A program made the position numbers and the translations under genes. Positions 2,824-17,005 of a stretch of DNA of 27,377 nt are shown piece by piece (positions within the stretch are counted from its first letter, which is position 1; each line of letters starts with the position of its first letter). Source of the DNA: a virus. The stretch lies in the IMG/VR virus record IMGVR_UViG_3300037014_000156, positions 1-27,377 of that record; one strand, 5' to 3'. The notes below the pieces were generated by a model. It saw only the letters and a program-made list of their open reading frames with translations. It made no database searches and was not told the origin of the DNA.

Positions 2824-2975
2824 TGTGCTTTTCTAAATACACTTTCACAAATTTAACATTTTGTGAAATCATGAAAAAACATTGCGAGAGCACCGACACG
2901 CCAACTTTCCAAAGATATGTTTTTGACTTGATTAAAAAAGGTCTAGTTAAATTGTTTTTTTGCGGATTCAGGTAG
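2820..2975 (+). CDS. Hypothetical small protein ending the rightward cluster (51 aa)
   Basis: The ORF starts at ATG 2820 inside the stop codon of the preceding gene (TTATGATG), the junction style of this cluster. The product is Cys/Phe-rich (four cysteines) with a helix pair resembling part of a winged-helix protein (QRYVFDLIKKGLVKLFFC). Its last 33 bases overlap the 3' end of the convergent lipoprotein gene. No known family is recognised, and the call rests on coupling and position. Confidence 0.45.
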   Translation: MMCFSKYTFTNLTFCEIMKKHCESTDTPTFQRYVFDLIKKGLVKLFFCGFR

Positions 2976-3293
2976 CTTACAAGTATCAATATAAAATTGC
3001 TCAAGTTCTTTTTTCCATGGGAGTATTTTCTTTGCCCAATCGTCAAGACTAAACCCAGAAGTTTTATCGCAAAATTCTATTGGAAAATTAGTCGTATAAA
3101 AATCAGATCCATCGGAAAATTTACAATTAGAATCATTAATTATTTTCATCTTATTTAGGTCAAAACAAACGAGGCGACATCGATCAAATTCAATCGACAT
3201 ATCGTATTTTATCAATGGCTTTATTTTAGGCGCATTACAACTAACGAAAGATATCGTCAACAGAAGCGTCATAATCAATTTGTGTTGTAGCAC
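2943..3293 (-). CDS. Small lipoprotein of the late-region end (116 aa)
   Basis: The N-terminus MLQHKLIMTLLLTISFVSC is a lipoprotein signal: a lysine, a hydrophobic core and the lipobox FVSC with Cys19 as the lipidated residue. I chose GTG 3293 because AAGGG precedes it at good spacing; ATG 3272 has no purine-rich site. The mature part contains paired cysteines (CRLVC, then NCK, EFC, DTC) and SLDDWAKKILPWKKELEQFY near the end. It is the last gene of the leftward late run. A lysis role (outer-membrane spanin-like) is possible from position and lipobox, but the protein is longer than typical Rz1-type spanins and not proline-rich. It overlaps the gene before it by 53 bases. Confidence 0.65.
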   Translation of the reverse strand: MLQHKLIMTLLLTISFVSCNAPKIKPLIKYDMSIEFDRCRLVCFDLNKMKIINDSNCKFSDGSDFYTTNFPIEFCDKTSGFSLDDWAKKILPWKKELEQFYIDTCKLPESAKKQFN

Positions 3294-3525
3294 TATTTAC
3301 CCTTTTCATAACCTGGACACCGTTTTCTACGGCGGCGTAATACAATTTTTTTCGATAAAGGAAATTTATTGCCGGCAAAATTGCCTTATCGAAACCATAT
3401 TGCAAAACCAATTTTACTATCAATTTTTGAAACCAGCTTGACCCAGAAAAAAAACTAGAGAGTACACCTTTCACCAATGTACTCTCTAACAAGTCGATAA
3501 ACTTCTGCTTAGTTGACTTAATCAT
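3241..3525 (-). CDS. Hypothetical amphipathic protein (94 aa)
   Basis: ATG 3525 overlaps the end of the preceding gene by 8 bases. Residues about 12-60 are rich in Leu, Val, Phe and Ser with interspersed lysines (LLESTLVKGVLSSFFSG, then WFQKLIVKLVLQYGFDKAILPAINFLY), more like membrane-active amphipathic helices than clean transmembrane spans. The acidic tail ends DYDASVDDIFR. The position beside a lipoprotein and a coiled-coil protein with signal peptide suggests the lysis or envelope end of the late operon. A holin-type role is conceivable but not shown. Confidence 0.55.
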   Translation of the reverse strand: MIKSTKQKFIDLLESTLVKGVLSSFFSGSSWFQKLIVKLVLQYGFDKAILPAINFLYRKKLYYAAVENGVQVMKRVNSATTQIDYDASVDDIFR

Positions 3526-4121: not shown

Positions 4122-4676
4122 TTATTCTCCCAAGCAAGAATTTATCCTAGAAATTATTTCGGATTGATCCGACGCCGTTATCAGTATTCCATCAGGGATT
4201 ATTTCAGATATTTTTGACTTTGCAATCAACAAAGATCCGTCCTTCAACAACATTTTTGGCAAAGAATATAATGCACTCATGTCAATTCTTTGCTGGTCCG
4301 TTAAACTTTTTAGATCATTTTTGTAAGCAACAAAATCGACAATTTTCTCACCACATTCCCGATCAATTGACTTTTTTATAATGGCCTTTTCGATTAAATC
4401 TTTGGCAAGTTCTTGATTTTTTCTGGATTCAGAAATCTGGACAGGGCATAAAATAACATCGTTTGAATCACGTTCCAGATATGAATATGGAATAGGAAAG
4501 TTTGTATTATGATCTATGATTGTTGCCTCACATAAAGGAAAACCGTTAGGTGTTTGGATAAAAACACCGTTTACCTCGACTTGTTCAGAAGTGCCTAGCC
4601 ATCCATTTTTTATATAATAAAATTTCTCTGCCGCCAAAGATGAAAAACAAATTAAAAACAAGAATAAATATCTCAT
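4122..4676 (-). CDS. Exported hypothetical protein (184 aa)
   Basis: ATG 4676 follows AAGGGG. Residues 1-16 (MRYLFLFLICFSSLAA) form a clear Sec signal peptide with predicted cleavage near LAA/EK. The mature protein has a beta-rich first half (KFYYIKNGWLGTSEQVEVNGVFIQTPNGFPLCEATIIDHNT) and a helical second half, with Cys pairs that could be disulfides in the periplasm. No enzymatic motif is recognised. It lies 10 bases after the signal-peptide fibre gene, so the two exported proteins may act together. A chaperone, partner or receptor-blocking role is possible, none demonstrated. Confidence 0.65.
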   Translation of the reverse strand: MRYLFLFLICFSSLAAEKFYYIKNGWLGTSEQVEVNGVFIQTPNGFPLCEATIIDHNTNFPIPYSYLERDSNDVILCPVQISESRKNQELAKDLIEKAIIKKSIDRECGEKIVDFVAYKNDLKSLTDQQRIDMSALYSLPKMLLKDGSLLIAKSKISEIIPDGILITASDQSEIISRINSCLGE

Positions 4677-4686
4677 AATTCCCCTT

Positions 4687-6417
4687 TTATAGATAACAAC
4701 ACATACCGTATAGAGTATAGCTAGTTATTGTCGCATTGCTGTTAGAATAACAAGTATTGTCGCTCATAAATAACGACACCACATATGCCGCTTGTTGAGT
4801 TGAGAAGCCGCAAGAAATCGCTTTTTTGTTTGTTGGGCATGTTAACGTGATTGATGCTACGCTCCCGAGGGTATATGTCTCACGAGCGCATCCCCAATAT
4901 AAGTTTCCACCTAATGTATTGACCTTTGTTTTTGAATTCAAATTTAAAAATTTATTTGCGCCCGTGTTTATTATTATGCCATTAGAATCATTTAAAATAA
5001 AAACATTTGGATCAAGCGAAGACATTTTATTGTATCCGCTTTTAATCTCGATTGAATTTCCTTCTTGCTGTATAAAATTATTTGGATCTAGTGAGATAAA
5101 CCTATTTTTTTTACTTTTAATCGATACCCCATTTGAGTCCAAAATAAATACGTTGTTCGAATCTCCTCCAACAATATTAAAGCCATTCATTTTTAAATTT
5201 TCGGTAGCTGTATGATTACCGAGGTTGTCTCCTTGTGCTGTCCCAGTTATCCATGACGTTAGACCATTCCCATCTGTAGACAAAACCTGACCGGACAACC
5301 CTTGATCAACTGGCAAAGATAAAACCAAATCAGAAAAAATGTTTTGTTGTGATATGGATGTAACATTTGATTTATCTGCATCTAAAATTCTTAAAATATT
5401 TGTTGATACAATATTGTTAACAATTAAATTAGAATCGACCAATAAATCAGGACCATTGTTCGATAAAATTTTAATTCCATCAAAAAGAACATTGCCATCG
5501 ATGTTTAAATCTTTGTTAACATCCAAAGTTTTGTTTATTGTTACGTCACCATTTATTAGTGTTGTGTTGGTGTCTATTCCTATAATTAAATCTCTTCCAG
5601 AATTTGAAGCCATTTGAAAAGAATCAAACAAAAGAGACCCGTTAGTATTGATATCGCCTATAGAACTTAAAGTTTTATTAACGGTAACGTCGCCATTTAT
5701 TAGTGTTGTGTTGGTATCAATACCCAAAGTTAAATCTCTGTCACTGTTTGAAATCATTTGAAAATTATCGAAAGATAAAAAACCGTTTGTATTGATATTT
5801 CCCGTAGAGTTCAACGTTTTATTTACCGTCACATCTCCATTAATTAAAGTTGTGTTCGTATCGATTCCTAGAGAAAGATCACGTCCAGTATTTGAAATCA
5901 TTTGAAAAGAGTCTAAAAGAAAAGAACTATCTGTGTTTATGTTCCCATTAGAACTCAACGTTTTATTTACCGTCACATCTCCATTTATCAATGTAGTGTT
6001 TGTGTCAATTCCTAAAGCTAGGTCTCTTCCAGTATTAGAAATCATTAAAAAAGAATCGAGAAGAAAAGATGAGTTTGTGTTTATATCTCCATTAGCATCA
6101 ACCGTGTTGCTTGTTGATATGTAACCATTCGTTTGAATAATATTTGCGTCGATATTCAAATCTTTTTTTGCAGATACGATCTTGTTTATTGTCACATCTC
6201 CGCTTATCAAAACACCAGTAATATCATTGGAGTCCTTTAGTGATAGACCGTTTGCATCGCCAGCTTTAATAGAAGAAGCGTTTAACTCTCCTAATCCTTT
6301 TGTTCTTCCAATGAAAACATTATCCTGGCGAAAATTTATTTCATTTTCTGCTGAATTGGCATTGAAATAAATAATCAATAATATTACAAAACATAAAAAA
6401 TTTAAAATTGTTTTCAT
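4687..6417 (-). CDS. Fibre protein with N-terminal signal peptide and tandem repeats (576 aa)
   Basis: ATG 6417 follows GGGAGAAG. Residues 1-23 (MKTILNFLCFVILLIIYF then NANSA) look like a Sec signal peptide, unusual for a virion fibre. Residues 35-110 begin a fibre-type region (VFIGRTKGLGELNASSIKAG). Residues 139-330 are four 48-residue repeats starting TNTTLINGDVTVNK. Residues about 365-390 hold the LSGQVLSTDGNGLTSW element common in trimeric fibres. Residues 410-500 are more Asn/Asp-rich stalk, and residues about 505-576 form a Cys-rich tip (CPTNKKAISCGF, ending MCCYL). It is expected to be trimeric and elongated. Either it is a tail fibre whose hydrophobic N-terminus has another use, or a phage-encoded fibre exported to the host surface. 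It directly follows other fibre-type genes. Confidence 0.75.
   Translation of the reverse strand: MKTILNFLCFVILLIIYFNANSAENEINFRQDNVFIGRTKGLGELNASSIKAGDANGLSLKDSNDITGVLISGDVTINKIVSAKKDLNIDANIIQTNGYISTSNTVDANGDINTNSSFLLDSFLMISNTGRDLALGIDTNTTLINGDVTVNKTLSSNGNINTDSSFLLDSFQMISNTGRDLSLGIDTNTTLINGDVTVNKTLNSTGNINTNGFLSFDNFQMISNSDRDLTLGIDTNTTLINGDVTVNKTLSSIGDINTNGSLLFDSFQMASNSGRDLIIGIDTNTTLINGDVTINKTLDVNKDLNIDGNVLFDGIKILSNNGPDLLVDSNLIVNNIVSTNILRILDADKSNVTSISQQNIFSDLVLSLPVDQGLSGQVLSTDGNGLTSWITGTAQGDNLGNHTATENLKMNGFNIVGGDSNNVFILDSNGVSIKSKKNRFISLDPNNFIQQEGNSIEIKSGYNKMSSLDPNVFILNDSNGIIINTGANKFLNLNSKTKVNTLGGNLYWGCARETYTLGSVASITLTCPTNKKAISCGFSTQQAAYVVSLFMSDNTCYSNSNATITSYTLYGMCCYL
5428..6003 (-). repeat. 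Four tandem 144-bp (48-aa) repeats in the fibre gene
   Basis: Residues 139-186, 187-234, 235-282 and 283-330 align without gaps. Each begins TNTTLINGDVTVNKT (last copy VTINKT), continues through a variable glycine/asparagine turn (S-N-G, S-T-G, S-I-G) and ends in a RDLxLGID-type motif. Flanking partial units extend the pattern on both sides. The DNA copies are similar but not identical, so expansion is not very recent. Such arrays set stalk length and may vary between relatives. Confidence 0.85.
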
Positions 6418-6939
6418 TTATCTTCTCCCGAAATTTATTAATTCTTCCCATATACCGGCTTTTCTTTGTTGTATTACAAAATCACCTCCAATATCTCCCA
6501 ATCTAAAACTATCATTATCATTCGGCTGACCGTGATATTTTATAGGCAAGTATGAGTCTGTCGATGAACAGATAAGCCATTCTGTCCCACTCGATTTAAT
6601 TAAAATGCCTTGATATTTTTGTGAAAAATAAAAAGATGTCTTCCCATTTATATTACATGCCGTTGGTAAAAGTCTTATTGTATTTGTAATGTCCGAACAA
6701 ATAAATAAAAAAGTTTTTCCCTTATTTTCTGGTAGTGCCGTTGGTACTGTAATATCAATGGTGCTTAAACTAGAATTTAATTCTATTACAGAATCATTAG
6801 AGGCCAAAGTGTAGTTTGCACCTATGGTTAAGAGTGCGCCATTGCCAAATGAGCCGATAATTGAATCCCTTAAATCATTAAACCAAGAGGCATAAATTGT
6901 GCCGCCGTTCGGTCTTGTCGGAATATCTGATATTAACAT
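6418..6939 (-). CDS. Putative tail fibre or adhesin-type protein (173 aa)
   Basis: ATG 6939 is preceded by TAGGAG. The first 35 residues (MLISDIPTRPNGGTIYASWFNDLRDSIIGSF) resemble the attachment head of phage fibre proteins, and the opening NGGTIYASWFNDLRDS parallels GTTIPSAHHNSLKDAL in the next gene upstream. Residues 36-130 are beta-rich (SNDSVIELNSSLSTIDITVP, then KTFLFICSDITNTIRLLP), of the kind seen in fibre knob domains. The end (GGDFVIQQRKAGIWEELINF) is a typical virion tail-tip closing motif. It has no signal peptide, in contrast with the fibre after it, and probably sits at the tail tip. Confidence 0.6.
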   Translation of the reverse strand: MLISDIPTRPNGGTIYASWFNDLRDSIIGSFGNGALLTIGANYTLASNDSVIELNSSLSTIDITVPTALPENKGKTFLFICSDITNTIRLLPTACNINGKTSFYFSQKYQGILIKSSGTEWLICSSTDSYLPIKYHGQPNDNDSFRLGDIGGDFVIQQRKAGIWEELINFGRR

Positions 6940-6950
6940 CTTAGTATCTC

Positions 6951-7736
6951 CTAAAGTTCGTAAGCTACTAACTTATAATTGTTTATGTATACAGATTTAT
7001 TTGTTAAATTCTCAACTATCGCCTGTAGCTTATAATTGTATGAACCTGCTGCGACAACATCCATGGTTAACATCGAGGGTGTATAAAAAGCGTATGATGC
7101 TGAATATCCTGTTATGGTAAATTGTGATATCTCTACACCATCTCTTGTGATTCTTATTTTTGCGTTTACGCTTCCATCGTTAGGAGTATATATATTTGAA
7201 TCGGCAACAGGTTGCAAGAAAACCATAACAGGCCTTCCTAGTGTTGTTATGCTTACGCTTAAATTAGTAACATCGACAAATGAATCGGATGAAGTAGAAA
7301 AATTTCCACATGATGAACTAATTTGTTGCCCTACCGTTAGTCCTCTTTTTGCATTTGTTACGGCATTATTTACTATCTCGTTTGTATTAACAGAATTATC
7401 TTGCATCTGTGAATTGCCAACACTATTTGTCGCAAGCCCGAATAATCCAGTAGCAAGGACAGAACACACATCAATATTATTTCTTGTGATTACTATGTCT
7501 CCTCCTGGTTCGGTCCACACAGAATTATTTTTTATCGGATCACCTATAAATAATCTTCTCATGAAAGCATACAACCAAACAAAGGTTGAAGATCCAAGGC
7601 TTCCGGCTTCATTGGTTACTACGCCTGAAACATTTCTCGGAACAACGTCAACGCATAAAGCATCCTTCAATGAATTGTGATGAGCTGACGGGATTGTCGT
7701 CCCATCTGTTGCAGAATTAATATTTCCTATTCCCAT
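6951..7736 (-). CDS. Putative tail fibre / tail-tip protein (261 aa)
   Basis: ATG 7736 follows GAGAGG just after the upstream stop. The N-terminus (SATDGTTIPSAHHNSLKDALCVDVVPRN, then EAGSLGSSTFVWLYAF) is a pattern I know from phage genes next to fibres, where it probably attaches to the tail. A middle helix (NSVGNSQMQDNSVNTNEIVNNAVTNAKRG) has the spaced-Asn repeat of trimeric stalks. The C-terminal 110 residues are a beta-sandwich-like domain (SSSDSFVDVTNLSVSITTLGRPVMVFLQP, then RITRDGVEISQF) suited to receptor or carbohydrate contact. Receptor specificity cannot be inferred. Confidence 0.65.
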   Translation of the reverse strand: MGIGNINSATDGTTIPSAHHNSLKDALCVDVVPRNVSGVVTNEAGSLGSSTFVWLYAFMRRLFIGDPIKNNSVWTEPGGDIVITRNNIDVCSVLATGLFGLATNSVGNSQMQDNSVNTNEIVNNAVTNAKRGLTVGQQISSSCGNFSTSSDSFVDVTNLSVSITTLGRPVMVFLQPVADSNIYTPNDGSVNAKIRITRDGVEISQFTITGYSASYAFYTPSMLTMDVVAAGSYNYKLQAIVENLTNKSVYINNYKLVAYEL

Positions 7737-7737
7737 G

Positions 7738-8964
7738 TTAAACCTCTCTTAATTTTAATGTTACAGTTTGTTGTTTTATATTTAACGACAAAGACATAAT
7801 CTTAAATTCTGTCGTCGGATCTAAAGTTAAACTCCATTGGCCCAAAGGATATTTTGCCACACCATATTTGCTTGCTCCGTATACAGGCACATCCCCACCC
7901 TGCGCTCCCACGAATACTGTCGGGTAGTCACATACAACTTTATTTAATATTCCAACTAATAACAATTCATATGTAAAAGGCGATTGTATTTCTAATTCCA
8001 TCTTAGGGTTTTTGTACTCTGTAACAAGTGAATCAAGAATGTCTTGTCTTCTAGAATTATTTGTAATCTGATCAAAATTAATTGGATCTCTTGATCGTAT
8101 TCCCCATTTTTGGATTGACGAAAAGTCTCTTGATGATAAATCTGTTTCTTCCCATTTCAAAAGATTAAATGTTTTGTTTAATCCTATTCTTACATCGGAA
8201 AGAGAAATTATATTCTCAACGCCATTAATTGAAGCTTGTCCATAAAAAGTATAATCAATACTTGCTGTTTCCACTCTTGATGAAATATAAATAGTCTGAT
8301 CTTTAATGAACAAAACTGAATTCGACAAAAACAATAAATCATCTAATGCCTTCTTAACAGTCACGTTTCGAAATGGCTCAACAACATCTATGATTGAATC
8401 CACATTTGGATTTATATTAAGCGTATCGACAACCAGCAAATCATTAATCCCGACTTGATCTAAGATCAATAATAAAATTGCCTTTGTTGTTTGTCCATTG
8501 GCAAGACTTCCGAAGTTTACTTCCACAGAGGAGAAGAGAGATTCGAAACCTAATACAGTAAACTTAAATCTTTGATCATAAATATCTGTAGTGCTTGCAT
8601 CGTCGTCTATTAGTCCGGTAAAGATTTCAACCGCTGGAGATAGTTTATACTCTCCGCAAATTGCTACACAACATTGTGTATCAATGTCTTGTATCTCCCA
8701 AGTCATTTTAAAAATAGAACTTTTGCGCTTGTACTTGAACATGCTCAACGTTGCTGGAGGATTAGAATATTTTCCATGGTCATTTCTCAACGCCAAAGAA
8801 AAACTAGAATATTTGAAAAATCCAATGTCATAATCATTGCTATCTATTGATTGATTTATTGATCCTATCGAAGAGACATTGACATCTTTTGTTATATCAA
8901 CAAAATCAGCTTCGTAATTTCCAGCTTGATCAAAAGTTTTTATATAAAATTTTATTGCTCCCAT
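7738..8964 (-). CDS. Putative tail hub / baseplate protein (408 aa)
   Basis: The gene overlaps its upstream neighbour by one base (TAATG), showing coupling. The protein is all-beta with segments typical of tail-hub proteins: an N-terminal strand-rich domain with SSFSLALRNDHGKYSNPP (about 50-70), FTGLIDDDASTTDIYDQRFKFTVLGFESLF (about 115-145) and a helix (VTVKKALDDLLFLSNSVLFI). The C-terminal 70 residues are strands ending KQQTVTLKLREV. Two-domain hub proteins with a tandem-beta ring occupy this place, after the tape measure and distal tail protein. Family assignment is by order and style, not a diagnostic motif. Confidence 0.6.
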   Translation of the reverse strand: MGAIKFYIKTFDQAGNYEADFVDITKDVNVSSIGSINQSIDSNDYDIGFFKYSSFSLALRNDHGKYSNPPATLSMFKYKRKSSIFKMTWEIQDIDTQCCVAICGEYKLSPAVEIFTGLIDDDASTTDIYDQRFKFTVLGFESLFSSVEVNFGSLANGQTTKAILLLILDQVGINDLLVVDTLNINPNVDSIIDVVEPFRNVTVKKALDDLLFLSNSVLFIKDQTIYISSRVETASIDYTFYGQASINGVENIISLSDVRIGLNKTFNLLKWEETDLSSRDFSSIQKWGIRSRDPINFDQITNNSRRQDILDSLVTEYKNPKMELEIQSPFTYELLLVGILNKVVCDYPTVFVGAQGGDVPVYGASKYGVAKYPLGQWSLTLDPTTEFKIMSLSLNIKQQTVTLKLREV

Positions 8965-9785
8965 TAAGTTGTTACCTCTGCAAGATCCATCTTAATATTC
9001 AATCCACTTTTATATAAATTGCTTGACCATTCTGGTTGGTACTCATTTGTTGGCCTAACCAAATAAATGTCTTCTTTCTTATATCCGATTCGCTTGCTTG
9101 AAAATTGATCTTCGTCGCCTCCACTAAGCCAAACCAAAACGCCCTCTCTTCTGAAAAATATCTTCTCAAGAATATCAAGATCACCACTAGGTTTCCATGT
9201 TGATAGGCTTAATGATGCTTTAAAAAAACCAGCCGTCTCAATGATATGCGTTTTGCCGCTTATCATTTTAGAAGATTGCTTATTCAATGATATTTCTGGA
9301 TTATCTATTTTAGGCCATGTCTCTAATTGTCCAACTCCCAATTTATCACAACAAAGAATTTGTCGAATAAACTTATCGTCGTTTGCTACCATAGTTCCTG
9401 TGATAATTATTCTAATTTGGTATGTCGTAACCTTTGTAAACTCGTGTTGTGTAACAGAACTAGTATTTGTCGTTTCATTAATTGCCGTTGAAAAATCTTG
9501 AAACGCTAGTCCATCAAAATATTTAATTGAATAACTTTTTAAATTATGAAGTATCAGAAATATTGAAGTTAAATCTCGACTATCGCCAAAGAAAATATCT
9601 AACGTCGTGTTTGCTGCATCAGTTGATTGTGTTGTGGCCCATGACGACGTATTATTTCTATTTCTCATATAATCGACAAATGACTGACCGTTATTAAATG
9701 CTACTGCATCAGTGACTTGAATGCTTGCCGAAGAATTATCAAGATCAATTATATTCTTTGTAAAAAACTTTATTTGTGCGCTCAT
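8964..9785 (-). CDS. Putative distal tail protein (273 aa)
   Basis: ATG 9785 overlaps the tape-measure stop in an ATGA junction, the classic site of the distal tail protein in siphoviruses. The sequence is beta-rich. Residues about 60-170 (TTLDIFFGDSRDLTSIFLILHNLKSYSIKYFDG, then TTYQIRIIITGTM) have the look of a galactose-binding-like (discoidin) sandwich, while the C-terminal part resembles a beta-barrel (KMISGKTHIIETAGFFKASLSLSTW). It would form the ring joining tube to tip. Function is inferred from order and fold impression. Confidence 0.6.
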   Translation of the reverse strand: MSAQIKFFTKNIIDLDNSSASIQVTDAVAFNNGQSFVDYMRNRNNTSSWATTQSTDAANTTLDIFFGDSRDLTSIFLILHNLKSYSIKYFDGLAFQDFSTAINETTNTSSVTQHEFTKVTTYQIRIIITGTMVANDDKFIRQILCCDKLGVGQLETWPKIDNPEISLNKQSSKMISGKTHIIETAGFFKASLSLSTWKPSGDLDILEKIFFRREGVLVWLSGGDEDQFSSKRIGYKKEDIYLVRPTNEYQPEWSSNLYKSGLNIKMDLAEVTT

Positions 9786-12631
9786 ATAATACCTACATTT
9801 AATGCCCGTCTTTCTACGACTTGGGCCTCTATGAAATCCATTAAGTTTTCAGTCAATCTTAAATTAATTGTTGTCGATTGTTCAGCACTATTATTGTTCG
9901 GTCTTCCAACTGATTGAATGAAATCGGGAACAAGAGCCTTTGGTGTCACCAACTCTCCGGGTTCTAACATCATTGGTATTCTATCTCTCGAGCCTCCCAT
10001 GCCACCAGGCACGATACCACCTTGAGCCGCCCTTGATATGGCAAGTTGTTGTTCAATTCCATACGCTGTCAATGCCGACGCTGCTGCAATACCTAGTGCA
10101 GGTCCAACTATCGGGATACCAACTAATGATGTGTATGCTTTTATTGCCCCTTCTTTTGTCGCAATAAAAGCATTGAAATGCGCAGCGGTCTTTCCTATTG
10201 CCTTCATCGTAGCATTTTTTGAATTTGCCAAAGCTACTAATTCACCAGATGCAGCAACAACTCCCTTAATATCTTCTCTTCGAAAAAATTCATTTGTTTT
10301 TGCTACAGCAGAACCGTATTTTTTTTCTTCTAAAAGAGATTGGTTTTTATTAGCAATATCTTCTGTAAGTTTTTCTGTTGCAATTTGTTCTCGTATTTGT
10401 TTATCGGTCAAAAGTTTTTGAGCTAATTTATCTTGTTCCTCTAAACTCAAAGCATCCCTTGATTCTTTATCTAGTTGATCAAACATTGCCTGTTGTTCTG
10501 TTCGTGCAACGTTATAAGCGTTCAACTCTTCTAATAGTGCAGCATCTTTTAATTTGGCATTCTCAATCGCCATATCTCTTTCGGTTACGTTAGATAGCAA
10601 CTCGGCTGATGATCTCTCAGCATCTGCTTCTTGACTTTTCTTTATAAATCCTATTTCAACGTCATTTAAGCCTTGCGCTTGTGCCTTGAGTATTTCATTC
10701 TCATTTATTTTTAAAAGAATTCTTTTCTTTGTTTCCTCGTCTAATGAATTTAAACTTGCTAATTTTAATTTTGCATTTTCAATTGCCAAGTTTCTTTCTT
10801 GAGCATTTCCCATTAATTTTGCTGCTGAAAGTTCTAACTCGGCTTCTTGACGTTTTTTCATCAACACTATTTCAGAAGCAGCTACTCCCCTAGATTGAGC
10901 AAGCAATATTTCATTTTCATTTTTCTTGATTTGAATTCTTTTCTTCGATTCCTCGTCTAATAAATCAACGCCTGATTCGACACCTATTTTTTCTTTTGGA
11001 GTAACTGGTTGAGGAACAACCTTTGTATCTTGCTCTTGTTTTTTTATTTTTATAAGCTCTTGTATTTTTTGAATTTGAGAATCAAGTGAATTTATTTCTT
11101 CTTGTCTTGCCTTTAATGCGGCGTCCTTCATAGACTTTGGTAGCCATGAGGCAATATTTTGTACCAATAACTCATTTCGTCTTTTTATTAAACCGTCTAA
11201 ACTAGAATTTAATTCCTCTACAGTTTTTGCAGAATCATCTTTTGCTATAATGTTAAAAAGTTTTTGCATTCCTGCAATAATTTCAGGAAGAAAAGAGAGT
11301 ACGATCGTAATCCCTCCCGTCATTGCTCCCCAAAAGGCTATTGCCGAAACCCTACCGACTATTAAAGCTGTTCTTAATACGGCAAGCATACTCGATACTT
11401 TTAAAAAGCCTCCAACTAACAAAGTAGATGCAGTTACGCCAGTTCCTAGTGCTAATACAAATTTTACAAACCAATCTAGAGCAGTTTTTTGAGCTTCTGT
11501 TAATCCTTGGAATTCTTGCGCCAATGCCGTTAAAGAATCGGCGATACGAATTACAGTAGGAGCTAGACGCTCTCCTATCAGGATTGCAACCGCTAAAGTA
11601 GACGCTTGCAAACGGTCAAATGCCTTTGAAACCGTTGCTTGTTTTAATGCAAGAGCATCTTGAAAAGTAGCAGCAAGAACAGTTTTGTCATTCATGCCTG
11701 TTAAAATTTTATCGAATAGATTGGCTTGTTGACCTGTCAAAGATAGTGCTGCGCTCAATGCCTCGCTCGATCCAAGAAGTTTTTTCATCGAGATAACATT
11801 GCCGCCTGTTGCGTCCATCGTTTCTCGTAAGGCAACAACCAAACCTTTCGTCTTGACATTTTGAAGGCCTAGTGCTTTTTGAACTCCAACCGATTCACCG
11901 GACAATCTAGACTGTGCATCGATCACAGAGCTTAACAATGCTTTCATTTCTGAAAAGGCTTGTGTAGTTGGCTTCGCCCCGTTTGCTGTTAATGCCGAAG
12001 AAGCGGAAAGTATTTCATTAAATCCGATTGATAGTTGTCTCGCTAGTCCACCGACTTTATTAAACTCTTGCGATAACTCTCCGACCGTTGTAACGCCATA
12101 TTTTTGAGCAAGGAAAAACTTTTGTGCCACCTCTGACGTAGTGCCGGCTTCTCTCCCGTACGCTGTGATAGATGCAGTTAAAGCTTTAACAGCCGTTGCG
12201 GTATCTGTTGCTCCTGCCGCTGCAAGGTTGACGGCATCTGATAGCACGCTCGTAGCTTCCTCTGCTGGGAATCCTGCTGATATTAAATCAAACAATGCCT
12301 TATTTAAAACTTGAAAACTTTCCCCTGACGTTGAGCCAATTCGTAATACATCGGCTTGCAAGCCTTTGATGCCTTCGCTTAAAGTTTTTGTTTTAAAAGA
12401 AGAAGAGTCAAGTAATGTCCCTACATTAGTAAAACTATCTTGGAACGTTGCAAACTTTGAAACTGCGAAACCAACAGAAGCGGTCAATGCTGCGAATCCA
12501 ATCGCAGAAGCAGCGGCAATTTTATTAAGATCTTTTTCTAATGATTTTGTTTGGTCTTTAACTCCGTCAATTTCTTTATTGAAATCTTTGGCGTCTGCAC
12601 CTATTTTTATGAGCATTTCATTACTTGTCAT
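9782..12631 (-). CDS. Tail tape measure protein, TP901-like (949 aa)
   Basis: This is the longest gene of the window. It starts at ATG 12631 (MTSNEMLIKIGADAKDFNKEIDGV) with AAGGA upstream, overlapping the frameshifted chaperone end by 11 bases. Residues 15-300 form the conserved TP901 core (FQDSFTNVGTLLD, TATAVKALTASITAYG, EFNKVGGLARQLSIGFNEILSA). Hydrophobic spans at about 385-450 may cross the membrane during ejection. Residues 540-760 are a charged coiled coil containing a tandem duplication. The C-terminus has the usual AQGGIVPGGMGGSRDRIPMML-PGE element. As a ruler it predicts a tail somewhat over 130 nm by the usual 1.5 Angstrom per residue rule. Confidence 0.93.
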   Translation of the reverse strand: MTSNEMLIKIGADAKDFNKEIDGVKDQTKSLEKDLNKIAAASAIGFAALTASVGFAVSKFATFQDSFTNVGTLLDSSSFKTKTLSEGIKGLQADVLRIGSTSGESFQVLNKALFDLISAGFPAEEATSVLSDAVNLAAAGATDTATAVKALTASITAYGREAGTTSEVAQKFFLAQKYGVTTVGELSQEFNKVGGLARQLSIGFNEILSASSALTANGAKPTTQAFSEMKALLSSVIDAQSRLSGESVGVQKALGLQNVKTKGLVVALRETMDATGGNVISMKKLLGSSEALSAALSLTGQQANLFDKILTGMNDKTVLAATFQDALALKQATVSKAFDRLQASTLAVAILIGERLAPTVIRIADSLTALAQEFQGLTEAQKTALDWFVKFVLALGTGVTASTLLVGGFLKVSSMLAVLRTALIVGRVSAIAFWGAMTGGITIVLSFLPEIIAGMQKLFNIIAKDDSAKTVEELNSSLDGLIKRRNELLVQNIASWLPKSMKDAALKARQEEINSLDSQIQKIQELIKIKKQEQDTKVVPQPVTPKEKIGVESGVDLLDEESKKRIQIKKNENEILLAQSRGVAASEIVLMKKRQEAELELSAAKLMGNAQERNLAIENAKLKLASLNSLDEETKKRILLKINENEILKAQAQGLNDVEIGFIKKSQEADAERSSAELLSNVTERDMAIENAKLKDAALLEELNAYNVARTEQQAMFDQLDKESRDALSLEEQDKLAQKLLTDKQIREQIATEKLTEDIANKNQSLLEEKKYGSAVAKTNEFFRREDIKGVVAASGELVALANSKNATMKAIGKTAAHFNAFIATKEGAIKAYTSLVGIPIVGPALGIAAASALTAYGIEQQLAISRAAQGGIVPGGMGGSRDRIPMMLEPGELVTPKALVPDFIQSVGRPNNNSAEQSTTINLRLTENLMDFIEAQVVERRALNVGII
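10541..10963 (-). repeat. Tandem 69-aa duplication in the tape measure coiled coil
   Basis: Residues 557-625 (from LLDEESKKRIQIKKNENEIL) and 629-697 (from SLDEETKKRILLKINENEIL) align end to end without gaps, both ending ERxxAIENAKLKxA, with a three-residue spacer SLN. Nucleotide copies are 10757-10963 and 10541-10747. Many aligned residues are identical, but substitutions are spread along the unit, so the duplication is not very recent. In a tape measure this adds directly to tail length. Confidence 0.85.
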
Positions 12632-13297
12632 TTTTGCTTTTCCTTGCTTTAAATTCTGCTTGCATCCTAGCGAAAGCATTTTTAGCGAGTTCTGTTGATT
12701 CTTGCCTTTCTTCTTTGCTTAAATTTAATTCTACAATTCTAGGTTTCATTTTCATGTTGTGTATTTTAGCATCAAAAACCTTTTCGTCGTAATCAGCATT
12801 TTTTATTATCGTTAACAAATATGTAATCTGTCTTATCGTATAATTGTTATAAAATTCTTCAATCGTTAATCCGTATCGTCGAGCGAATACATCGTATATG
12901 GTTGCCCAGCACGTGTTATCGCTCTTTGCTACTTTTTTAGTTGGTCTTCCTCCTCATTAATCTCTACGGCTGAAATCCCAATGGTCTTTACCAAAACAGG
13001 AAGTAAAGAATTTAAAAGATTTGTTTCGGTTTCAAAACTTTCGATAAATTCCTCTAGAGAATTAAAGATACCCTTTGACTCGAGCAAAAAATAAATCATT
13101 TCCGAAATTTGAAAACTTCTTAAATTCGCAACATGGTCGCTTAATGCAAGCAAGCCATTCGGCTGTTCGGTTGTTGCAAAATGTCCAAAGGCCCAAACTC
13201 TAGCTGTTAGATTAAAATGTTTTACCTTGTACTCTTTTCCCTTAATCAAAAGAAAAGCGTTTGAAGGATTTAACGATTCCAGTAAGATGTTTTTCAT
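12621..13297 (-). CDS. Tail assembly chaperone, -1 frameshift fusion (G-T type, 225 aa)
   Basis: The upstream 122-residue frame ends CTA-AAA-AAG-TAG on the minus strand. The heptamer A-AAA-AAG lies in phase for a -1 slip, after which the frame continues open from 12932 to TAA 12621-12623. The new 103 residues begin VAKSDNTCWATIYDVFARRYGLTIEEF and end in a basic helix (FARMQAEFKARKSKNDK). The part after the slip has the RYG-x-T-x-EEF pattern expected of the T domain of tail chaperones and has no start codon of its own at a sensible place. In lambda-like siphoviruses G and G-T chaperones guide tape measure and tube during tail assembly. Position immediately before the tape measure and overlap with its start agree. 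Confidence 0.85.
12929..13297 (-). CDS. Tail assembly chaperone, unshifted product (G type, 122 aa)
   Basis: ATG 13297 follows GGAGAG. The acidic, helical protein (HFNLTARVWAFGHFATTEQPNGLLAL, then FQISEMIYFLLESKGIFNSLEEFIESFE) ends in an acidic tail, NEEEDQLKK, right at the slippery site. Length, position before the tape measure and the frameshift identify it as the abundant short tail chaperone, which coats the tape measure and is absent from mature virions. It is the first gene after the transcriptional break at 13298-13616, so its start region must hold a leftward promoter or receive antiterminated transcripts. Confidence 0.85.
   Translation of the reverse strand: MKNILLESLNPSNAFLLIKGKEYKVKHFNLTARVWAFGHFATTEQPNGLLALSDHVANLRSFQISEMIYFLLESKGIFNSLEEFIESFETETNLLNSLLPVLVKTIGISAVEINEEEDQLKK
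12932..12938 (-). promoter_or_regulatory. -1 ribosomal frameshift site A AAA AAG
   Basis: On the minus strand the seven bases A-AAA-AAG precede the stop TAG of the short chaperone directly, and the zero-frame codons are AAA and AAG as required for a simultaneous -1 slip. A possible stimulatory stem pairs AGCGA with TCGCT shortly downstream, with some bulging. The -1 frame stays open for 103 codons beyond. Confidence 0.85.
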
Positions 13298-15957: not shown

Positions 15958-16430
15958 TACCAATTCGCTTCGTTCTTTTTGAAAACTGCAACATTCGTCG
16001 CAGAACTAAAAAGTGATGCTCCCGTGGGCGGCTCTGCCAGTAGTGCAGTATCAGGCAAAGGAGTTATCGGCTTTGACTTATTCAATGGTGCAATCTGATT
16101 CAAAAGATCATTCGCCATCTTGTCCCAACTATACGTTTCTTGTTTTACGGTATCGCTATTTGTTTGTGTTAACGAAAGTATATTTTTTATAACCTGTGCA
16201 GCTTTGTATTTTGCAATCTTGCCCAACAAAATTTTTGAATTTGTTCCTGCCGGAAGAATATAATAATTTGCAATCCTAGAGTTGATTTCAATTTCCGCTT
16301 CTGTTATGAATGCCTCAACGTCTTCTGTCGTTACCGCTGTATTGTTTGCCTCAACCAAAGTTTTAGCTTCAATCTTTATTTTTCTAAACAAGCTTTTGAC
16401 CTGATCAACTGTTGTATATAGCAATGCCAT
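15957..16430 (-). CDS. DUF1320 / Mu gp36-like head-tail connector (157 aa)
   Basis: Residues 1-75 (YTTVDQVKSLFRKI, then VEAFITEAEIEINSRIANYYILP) match the DUF1320 pattern of Mu gp36, an all-helical head-completion protein. The Y-x-P at the end of the second helix is typical. The C-terminal half (LPDTALLAEPPTGASLF) is extended and could latch to neighbouring subunits. TAATG overlaps join it to genes on both sides. It would form the ring between portal and tail completion protein. Confidence 0.78.
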   Translation of the reverse strand: MALLYTTVDQVKSLFRKIKIEAKTLVEANNTAVTTEDVEAFITEAEIEINSRIANYYILPAGTNSKILLGKIAKYKAAQVIKNILSLTQTNSDTVKQETYSWDKMANDLLNQIAPLNKSKPITPLPDTALLAEPPTGASLFSSATNVAVFKKNEANW

Positions 16431-17005
16431 TATAATTCCTCGGTATTAAAAACTATTTTAAATCTTCTGTCTTGAAGAAACGAAAGAGGAGAGTAAACCA
16501 ATTTACCGCCGACTTTTTCTTTTGTCAGTACAATCTGTTTTACCTGTTCAACTATAAATGCCGCAACCTCAAAACAATAAAAAGCTTTTGCCGAAGGATC
16601 AAAATAGAAATCATAAGGTTTTCCGATCAAACCTTTTGCGATCTCGCCAATCATTGCTTTTTCTTCTGGAAACATAAAAATATTTAAACCGATAACTCTA
16701 TCTTTTGTTGTGAAAAATGTAATCACATCGATAAGGGCAACGCCTTTTGCTGTTGCCTCGATTACATAATCAATACCATCTCCTAAAATATTTCCAACAA
16801 ACATTGAGCCGTGTTTAATTTTCATTGGATTAATTAAATCGGTTAACTCTCCGAACGTTGTCGATAACAATACAGTACCAATTTCCAAATGATCTTTTAA
16901 ATTCAAATAAATTTTCCCTGTTACTTTTTTCTTTGAATATGGAAACCTAACATTCGCCGCCCATTTTAAAAACGGTGTTAGGAGAGTTAAAATAAAATCA
17001 ATCAT
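16430..17005 (-). CDS. Permuted NlpC/P60-like (YiiX-type) cysteine peptidase (191 aa)
   Basis: The protein fits permuted papain-like amidases of the YiiX type. They carry the catalytic His first, IKHGSMFVGN (His65), then an acidic residue, DYVIEATAKGV (Glu83), then GKPYDFYFDP followed by the nucleophile in FYCFEVAAF (Cys144; related enzymes have YCSEL). The first 18 residues are hydrophobic and could be a membrane or lipid-facing helix. Such enzymes cleave amide or lipid-linked bonds and some cut peptidoglycan peptides. Genes on either side overlap by 1-4 bases. It may help entry, lysis or particle processing; no other candidate lysin is visible in the window. Confidence 0.75.
   Translation of the reverse strand: MIDFILTLLTPFLKWAANVRFPYSKKKVTGKIYLNLKDHLEIGTVLLSTTFGELTDLINPMKIKHGSMFVGNILGDGIDYVIEATAKGVALIDVITFFTTKDRVIGLNIFMFPEEKAMIGEIAKGLIGKPYDFYFDPSAKAFYCFEVAAFIVEQVKQIVLTKEKVGGKLVYSPLSFLQDRRFKIVFNTEEL

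Follow-up and report, generated by a model that had tools for sequence, protein, structure and literature searches.

The long fibre encoded in the late tail operon of a tailed phage, and most of its positional counterparts in related phages, carry predicted Sec signal peptides (SPs). Our preferred reading is that these are virion tail fibres that would leave the cytoplasm through Sec, acquire disulfide bonds in the periplasm and be joined to the tail at about the time of lysis; as a whole it is judged to stand an even chance of being correct. The sequences make export itself of the SP-bearing fibres highly probable, and the joining of the exported fibres to the virion is the step at which the scales hang level. 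A broader proposal is made tentatively, at slightly below an even chance: that a tailed dsDNA phage lineage completes its virions outside the cytoplasm, with fibres and some other decorations secreted by Sec and the SP acting as a switch between sister phages. Textbook tailed-phage assembly is wholly cytoplasmic.

The DNA analysed, referred to here as the window, is an IMG/VR virus record of 27,377 bases with its late genes on the minus strand, in the order terminase, Mu-type portal, protease, gpT capsid, tape measure, tail tip and two fibre/RBP genes. The fibre under study, designated fibre C, is encoded in this late tail operon, of siphophage type, after the tape measure and tail tip (Table 1). 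By its position and its overlap with a neighbour (2943-3525), the lipoprotein gene is spanin-like, which suggests a host with an outer membrane.

Table 1. Positions of the features in the window.
Feature	Position	Strand	Remark
Fibre C	4687..6417	-	576-aa repeat fibre with Sec signal peptide
Signal peptide of fibre C	6349..6417	-	residues 1-23
Shine-Dalgarno-like GGGAGA of fibre C gene	6424..6429	-	read from sequence
Four 48-aa (144-bp) repeats of fibre C	5557..6132	-	residues 96-287
Degenerate fifth repeat of fibre C	5413-5556	-	
C-terminal tip of fibre C	4690..4905	-	residues 505-576; Cys 510, 527, 536, 556, 573, 574
D	4122..4676	-	184-aa SP protein after fibre C, 4 mature Cys
Signal peptide of D	4629..4676	-	
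B	6418..6939	-	173 aa, virion-type N-terminus (DIPTRPNGGTIYASWFNDLRD)
A	6951..7736	-	261-aa fibre/RBP, SP-less in the window
Tail-tip protein	7738..8964	-	408 aa; query used to find the clade
Tail protein between tape measure and tip	8964..9785	-	
Tape measure protein	9782..12679	-	
Small protein overlapping lipoprotein gene	3241..3525	-	presumed lysis region
Lipoprotein (TISFVSC)	2943..3293	-	outer-spanin-like by position and overlap

The fibre C ORF was intact, with an ATG start and GGGAGA 7-12 nt upstream. It begins on the base after the stop codon of B, and the operon continues on the same strand. The N-terminus (MKTILNFLCFVILLIIYFNANS/AEN or NSA/EN, the slash marking the predicted cut) shows a basic n-region followed by a long hydrophobic core, and the residues close to the cut are small, in agreement with the Sec n-, h- and c-regions and the -3/-1 rule. 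SPs were called with a transparent, home-made tripartite score, not with SignalP. By this simple score fibre C reached 8.15, and a value above 5.5 was found in 5 of the 219 upstream ORFs of the clade, some of these five being virion-type proteins with an SP. No in-frame ATG, GTG or TTG occurs between codons 15 and 60 of the gene; a cytoplasmic isoform beginning just past the SP is therefore impossible, and the sole product has the SP. The repeats, of which neighbouring copies are 71-79% identical, begin at residue 96, leaving a spacer of 72 residues after the SP, and six cysteines fall within the last 67 residues. Comparison of fibre C with Pfam, PHROG and PDB sequences returned zero matches, and no S74 was found in the tip. 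When phages, plasmids and viral contigs were searched with the fibre and with its tip, a single match emerged, to a Salinibacter phage long tail fibre (22%, E 2e-3). The AlphaFold model of the tip (pLDDT 39.5) was too poor to judge the fold.

D likewise has a predicted SP (MRYLFLFLICFSSLA/A, score 6.07). It is a relative of D in phage L207, which bears an SP too (26% over 114 aa); the D proteins of L177 and L207 have an odd number of cysteines (7). Cytoplasmic fibre-assembly proteins are usually encoded at this position, after the fibre. Because D has an SP and occupies their usual site, it may be a chaperone of the exported fibre. B lacks an SP throughout the clade. A sequence-only reading of the window had described a fibre-like protein with a Sec-type SP in a tail operon, a Cys-rich tip suiting an oxidising compartment and a second SP protein following it, and all three descriptions held.

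A clade of uncultured phages was collected with tape-measure and tail-tip searches, giving about 25 further contigs. Since fibre C had no family match and only the one 22% hit, fibres were compared by position, not by sequence; SPs, SP position, junction, Cys parity and synteny were read directly from the contigs. The cassette of the nearest clade runs tape measure - 277 aa - 406 aa - A - B - C - D - lysis, where A starts MG(T/I)NxI..., B starts (F)SDIPTR.NG..I.ASWFN.IR and C is the long fibre. By its position in the sequence, fibre C is a member of this fibre cassette. The position-C fibre had an SP in 10 of 14 phages (the window, L177, L207, L201, L202, L205, L210, L212, L217 and L221). When C was a separate ORF, 10/11 had the SP, the SP-less exception being L178, as against 0/3 when it was not separate (hypergeometric p about 0.01 by hand calculation, the phages not being independent); these three are L176 and L209, in which an SP-less C forms one protein with B, and L215, which encodes a short B-type fibre but lacks a separate C. 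Two SP-bearing C proteins matched tail-fibre families, that of L177 phrog_24210 (8e-13) and that of L201 phrog_863 (1e-39), and SP-bearing and SP-less C proteins could be aligned with each other (L177/L209, E 2e-19; L210/L178, 36% over 220 aa). The pair of SP fibre and SP protein (C, D) is kept in place in L177 and L207. The tail-to-lysis interval of G001, a sister phage by gpT (72% capsid identity), encodes a virion fibre of 572 aa and a protein of 149 aa, with no SP pair.

The C proteins of L177 (6414-9620) and L207 (11812-14997) were missed by the score owing to Asp at position 2, and both were called by eye (MDCIKNLLLLFILTLTACSEVYA/WDK). They share Cys18 in a lipobox-like context (LTAC, IGSC) and also offer a YA/WDKS cleavage option; lipoprotein and SPI both fit. 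The possible lipobox would mean membrane anchoring. In L209 a 230-aa ORF (8168-8860), possibly a homing endonuclease, lies between A and the fused B-C fibre.

The strongest observation of the sequence comparison was the junction in A. Four phages encode A with an SP (L201, L205, L217, in two copies, and L221), and no SP-less copy of A was found in any of these four. The SP is 15-27 residues long and ends right before GTGTL, GTGSV, GTNTL, GTETL or GTNNL, and the residues where cleavage is expected are small in each of the five genes. SP-less A proteins begin MGTNTL or similar. With the junction placed at this motif, GT(N/G/E)xL, predicted SP cleavage or Met loss would give an identical A N-terminus. 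Between SP-bearing and SP-less A proteins the first 60 mature residues were the best conserved (39% vs 27%), being higher in 49/55 pairs. The model of A, with a mean pLDDT of 52 and values of mostly 63-83 in the C-terminal domain, is similar to TNF-like lectins and to C1q-type tips of phages. In a tree of the tail-tip protein, phages with an SP-bearing A fell at several places, L221 being sister to the SP-less L176 (support 97/99), so that gain, loss or exchange of the SP took place at least twice.

Even Cys counts point to oxidative folding of the SP-bearing fibres. Cysteines within the SP were left out of the mature count. Mature cysteines were present and even in number in all 11 complete SP-bearing A and C fibres (2 in seven fibres; 6, 10, 10 and 12 in the other four), compared with an even number in 6 of 28 Cys-containing SP-less fibres (Fisher p = 7e-6; L177 and L207 are sisters and L217 gives two paralogues, for an effective number of about 9) and 69/160 other clade ORFs. 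Cys density was significant inside the clade and equally high in SP-less outer-clade fibres; density was therefore not taken as diagnostic and only parity was used. The tail-type protein phrog_16194 has an SP and 2 Cys in L217 (5734-6159) and L216 (2148-2582), and its orthologue in L221 (6224-6604) has no SP and 0 Cys.

Further virion-type proteins may be exported, to go by their sequences. SP-bearing proteins were also present in the structural region of L221 (3041-3661), L217 (2168-2812) and L212 (1446-2123), the L221 protein sharing homology with the C-terminal portion of a 347-aa protein of L178 that lacks an SP (E 3e-12). SP toggles seen outside the clade, with the score run over all loci, were mostly noise arising from reverse-strand ORFs or from the choice of start. 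SP-like N-termini were found on 9 of 128 scanned Mu-type gpT capsid proteins (in L139, L143, L153/L078, L163, L168, L069, L072 and L082), and such a start, taken by itself, may therefore be insufficient proof that a virion protein is exported. These extensions (e.g. MKMFTTLILAVMVALFAVPAMA/AD) precede the usual MLVNK... start; Pseudomonas and other cultured gpT relatives align from residue 43-50 on only.

In the mechanism proposed, fibre C would be made late and exported through Sec, its SP being cleaved. Trimerisation and disulfide formation would follow in the periplasm of a host of Gram-negative type, with the exported neighbour D probably aiding maturation, and the fibre would attach to virion tail tips once the inner membrane opens at lysis. 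The actual export, the chaperone role of D and the joining to the virion are what we infer. The SP would act as an evolutionary switch, repeatedly present or absent on orthologous C and A proteins and on one or more further tail-type proteins; in A its placement is such that the cut would restore the normal virion N-terminus. P22 tailspikes and T4 long fibres are established examples of fibres that can attach to completed particles outside the cell.

The main rival to virion fibres completed in the periplasm is that the exported fibre acts on its own in the periplasm or at the surface (as a decoy, or in superinfection exclusion or adhesion) and never enters the virion. A factor of this kind requires an SP, the possible lipobox in C of L177 and L207 would suit it, the window retains SP-less A and B able to serve the virion, and the window taken alone is accounted for. 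Against this, the only A protein or proteins in L201, L205, L217 and L221 carry an SP, the N-terminal region of A is the best conserved and is needless for a decoy, other virion-type proteins also have SPs, the genes lie gapless in the late operon with C fused to the virion protein B in sister phages (L176, L209), and no path through the outer membrane could be seen. We regard this rival as unlikely. The accessory conversion or exclusion factor, distinct from virion fibres, that the sequence-only reading had proposed is not supported: the gene is gapless in the late operon, its positional relatives are PHROG tail fibres, and phages with an SP-bearing A have no SP-less copy. Its premise that virion fibres carry no SP is put in doubt by the clade comparison. 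The hydrophobic N-terminus could instead be an uncleaved membrane or assembly anchor, tethering tail parts to the cytoplasmic side of the inner membrane with no export. SP-like N-termini on some Mu-type capsid proteins, which are expected to assemble in the cytoplasm, speak for such an anchor, but it is made improbable by the small residues at the cut in five A genes, by a cut that restores the SP-less N-terminus and by even Cys counts, which indicate oxidative folding.

A phage-borne Bdellovibrio MAT adhesin, acquired from a predatory host, is very improbable. MAT fibres also have a Sec signal, trimer-type beta repeats in a long fibre and diverse, exchangeable C-terminal tips (PMC10769870), and TNF-like folds occur among those tips, as in A here. 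MATs, however, have a conserved ~130-aa domain directly after the SP (PMC10769870), for which the 72 residues between SP and repeats of fibre C leave no room, and fibre C was rejected as a MAT on this ground (judged by length only). Fibre C also lies in a phage late operon, not on a chromosome, there was no PDB sequence match and no host link to Bdellovibrionota, and the clade fibres match phage families instead. The likeness to Bdellovibrionota fibres suggested from the sequence thus amounts to analogy. Scarcely credible is an artefact of start-codon choice or chance hydrophobicity: the SP prediction is a simple score, not SignalP, but a strong Shine-Dalgarno sequence stands at the SP start with no alternative start, and the SP recurs at one position in ten contigs.

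Among known systems, Caudoviricetes tail fibres (PHROG 24210, 863; C1q/TNF-like tips) share the operon position, a repeat- or beta-rich fibre, tip domains and homologous modules in relatives; they differ from the fibres described here in the Sec SP, the even Cys and the exported neighbour, and the window fibre matches no family. The exported lysogenic-conversion protein Lom of lambda (PMC12309495) is likewise an SP-bearing phage gene product encoded beside fibres, but Lom is a beta-barrel outer-membrane protein, whereas here the fibre itself carries the signal. As a classic moron, fibre C was rejected on gene order and strand: it follows the B stop without a gap, on the same strand, and the operon continues. 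G3p of M13 (PMC8310372), which binds the receptor as part of the virion, is synthesised as a Sec preprotein and enters the particle from the envelope; M13, however, is assembled in the membrane, whereas the phage studied here is tailed, contains dsDNA and has a cytoplasmic head. Zero reports of Sec-exported fibres joining tails were found in the literature searched, which was open-access only and makes this weak evidence.

Orthologous fibres that differ by a cleavable SP make tail completion in the periplasm a testable question. If the preferred reading is true, RBP annotation would change, as SP-bearing fibres are easily filed as host adhesins, and such phages would be a possible source of disulfide-tolerant fibres.

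A host search by gpT in GTDB genomes gave a best match of 39%, with phyla scattered, and a tape-measure search in one sampled phylum returned unrelated phages only. Elsewhere in the window, a Peptidase_C92 (YaeF/YiiX, permuted papain-like) is encoded at 16430-17005 and is conserved in the tail-completion region of near relatives. Positions 40-155 hold dense GGTTCAGGTTCCGGTGAC-type repeats, coding for Gly/Ser/Asp if translated, directly upstream of a plus-strand coiled-coil ORF (177-1172).
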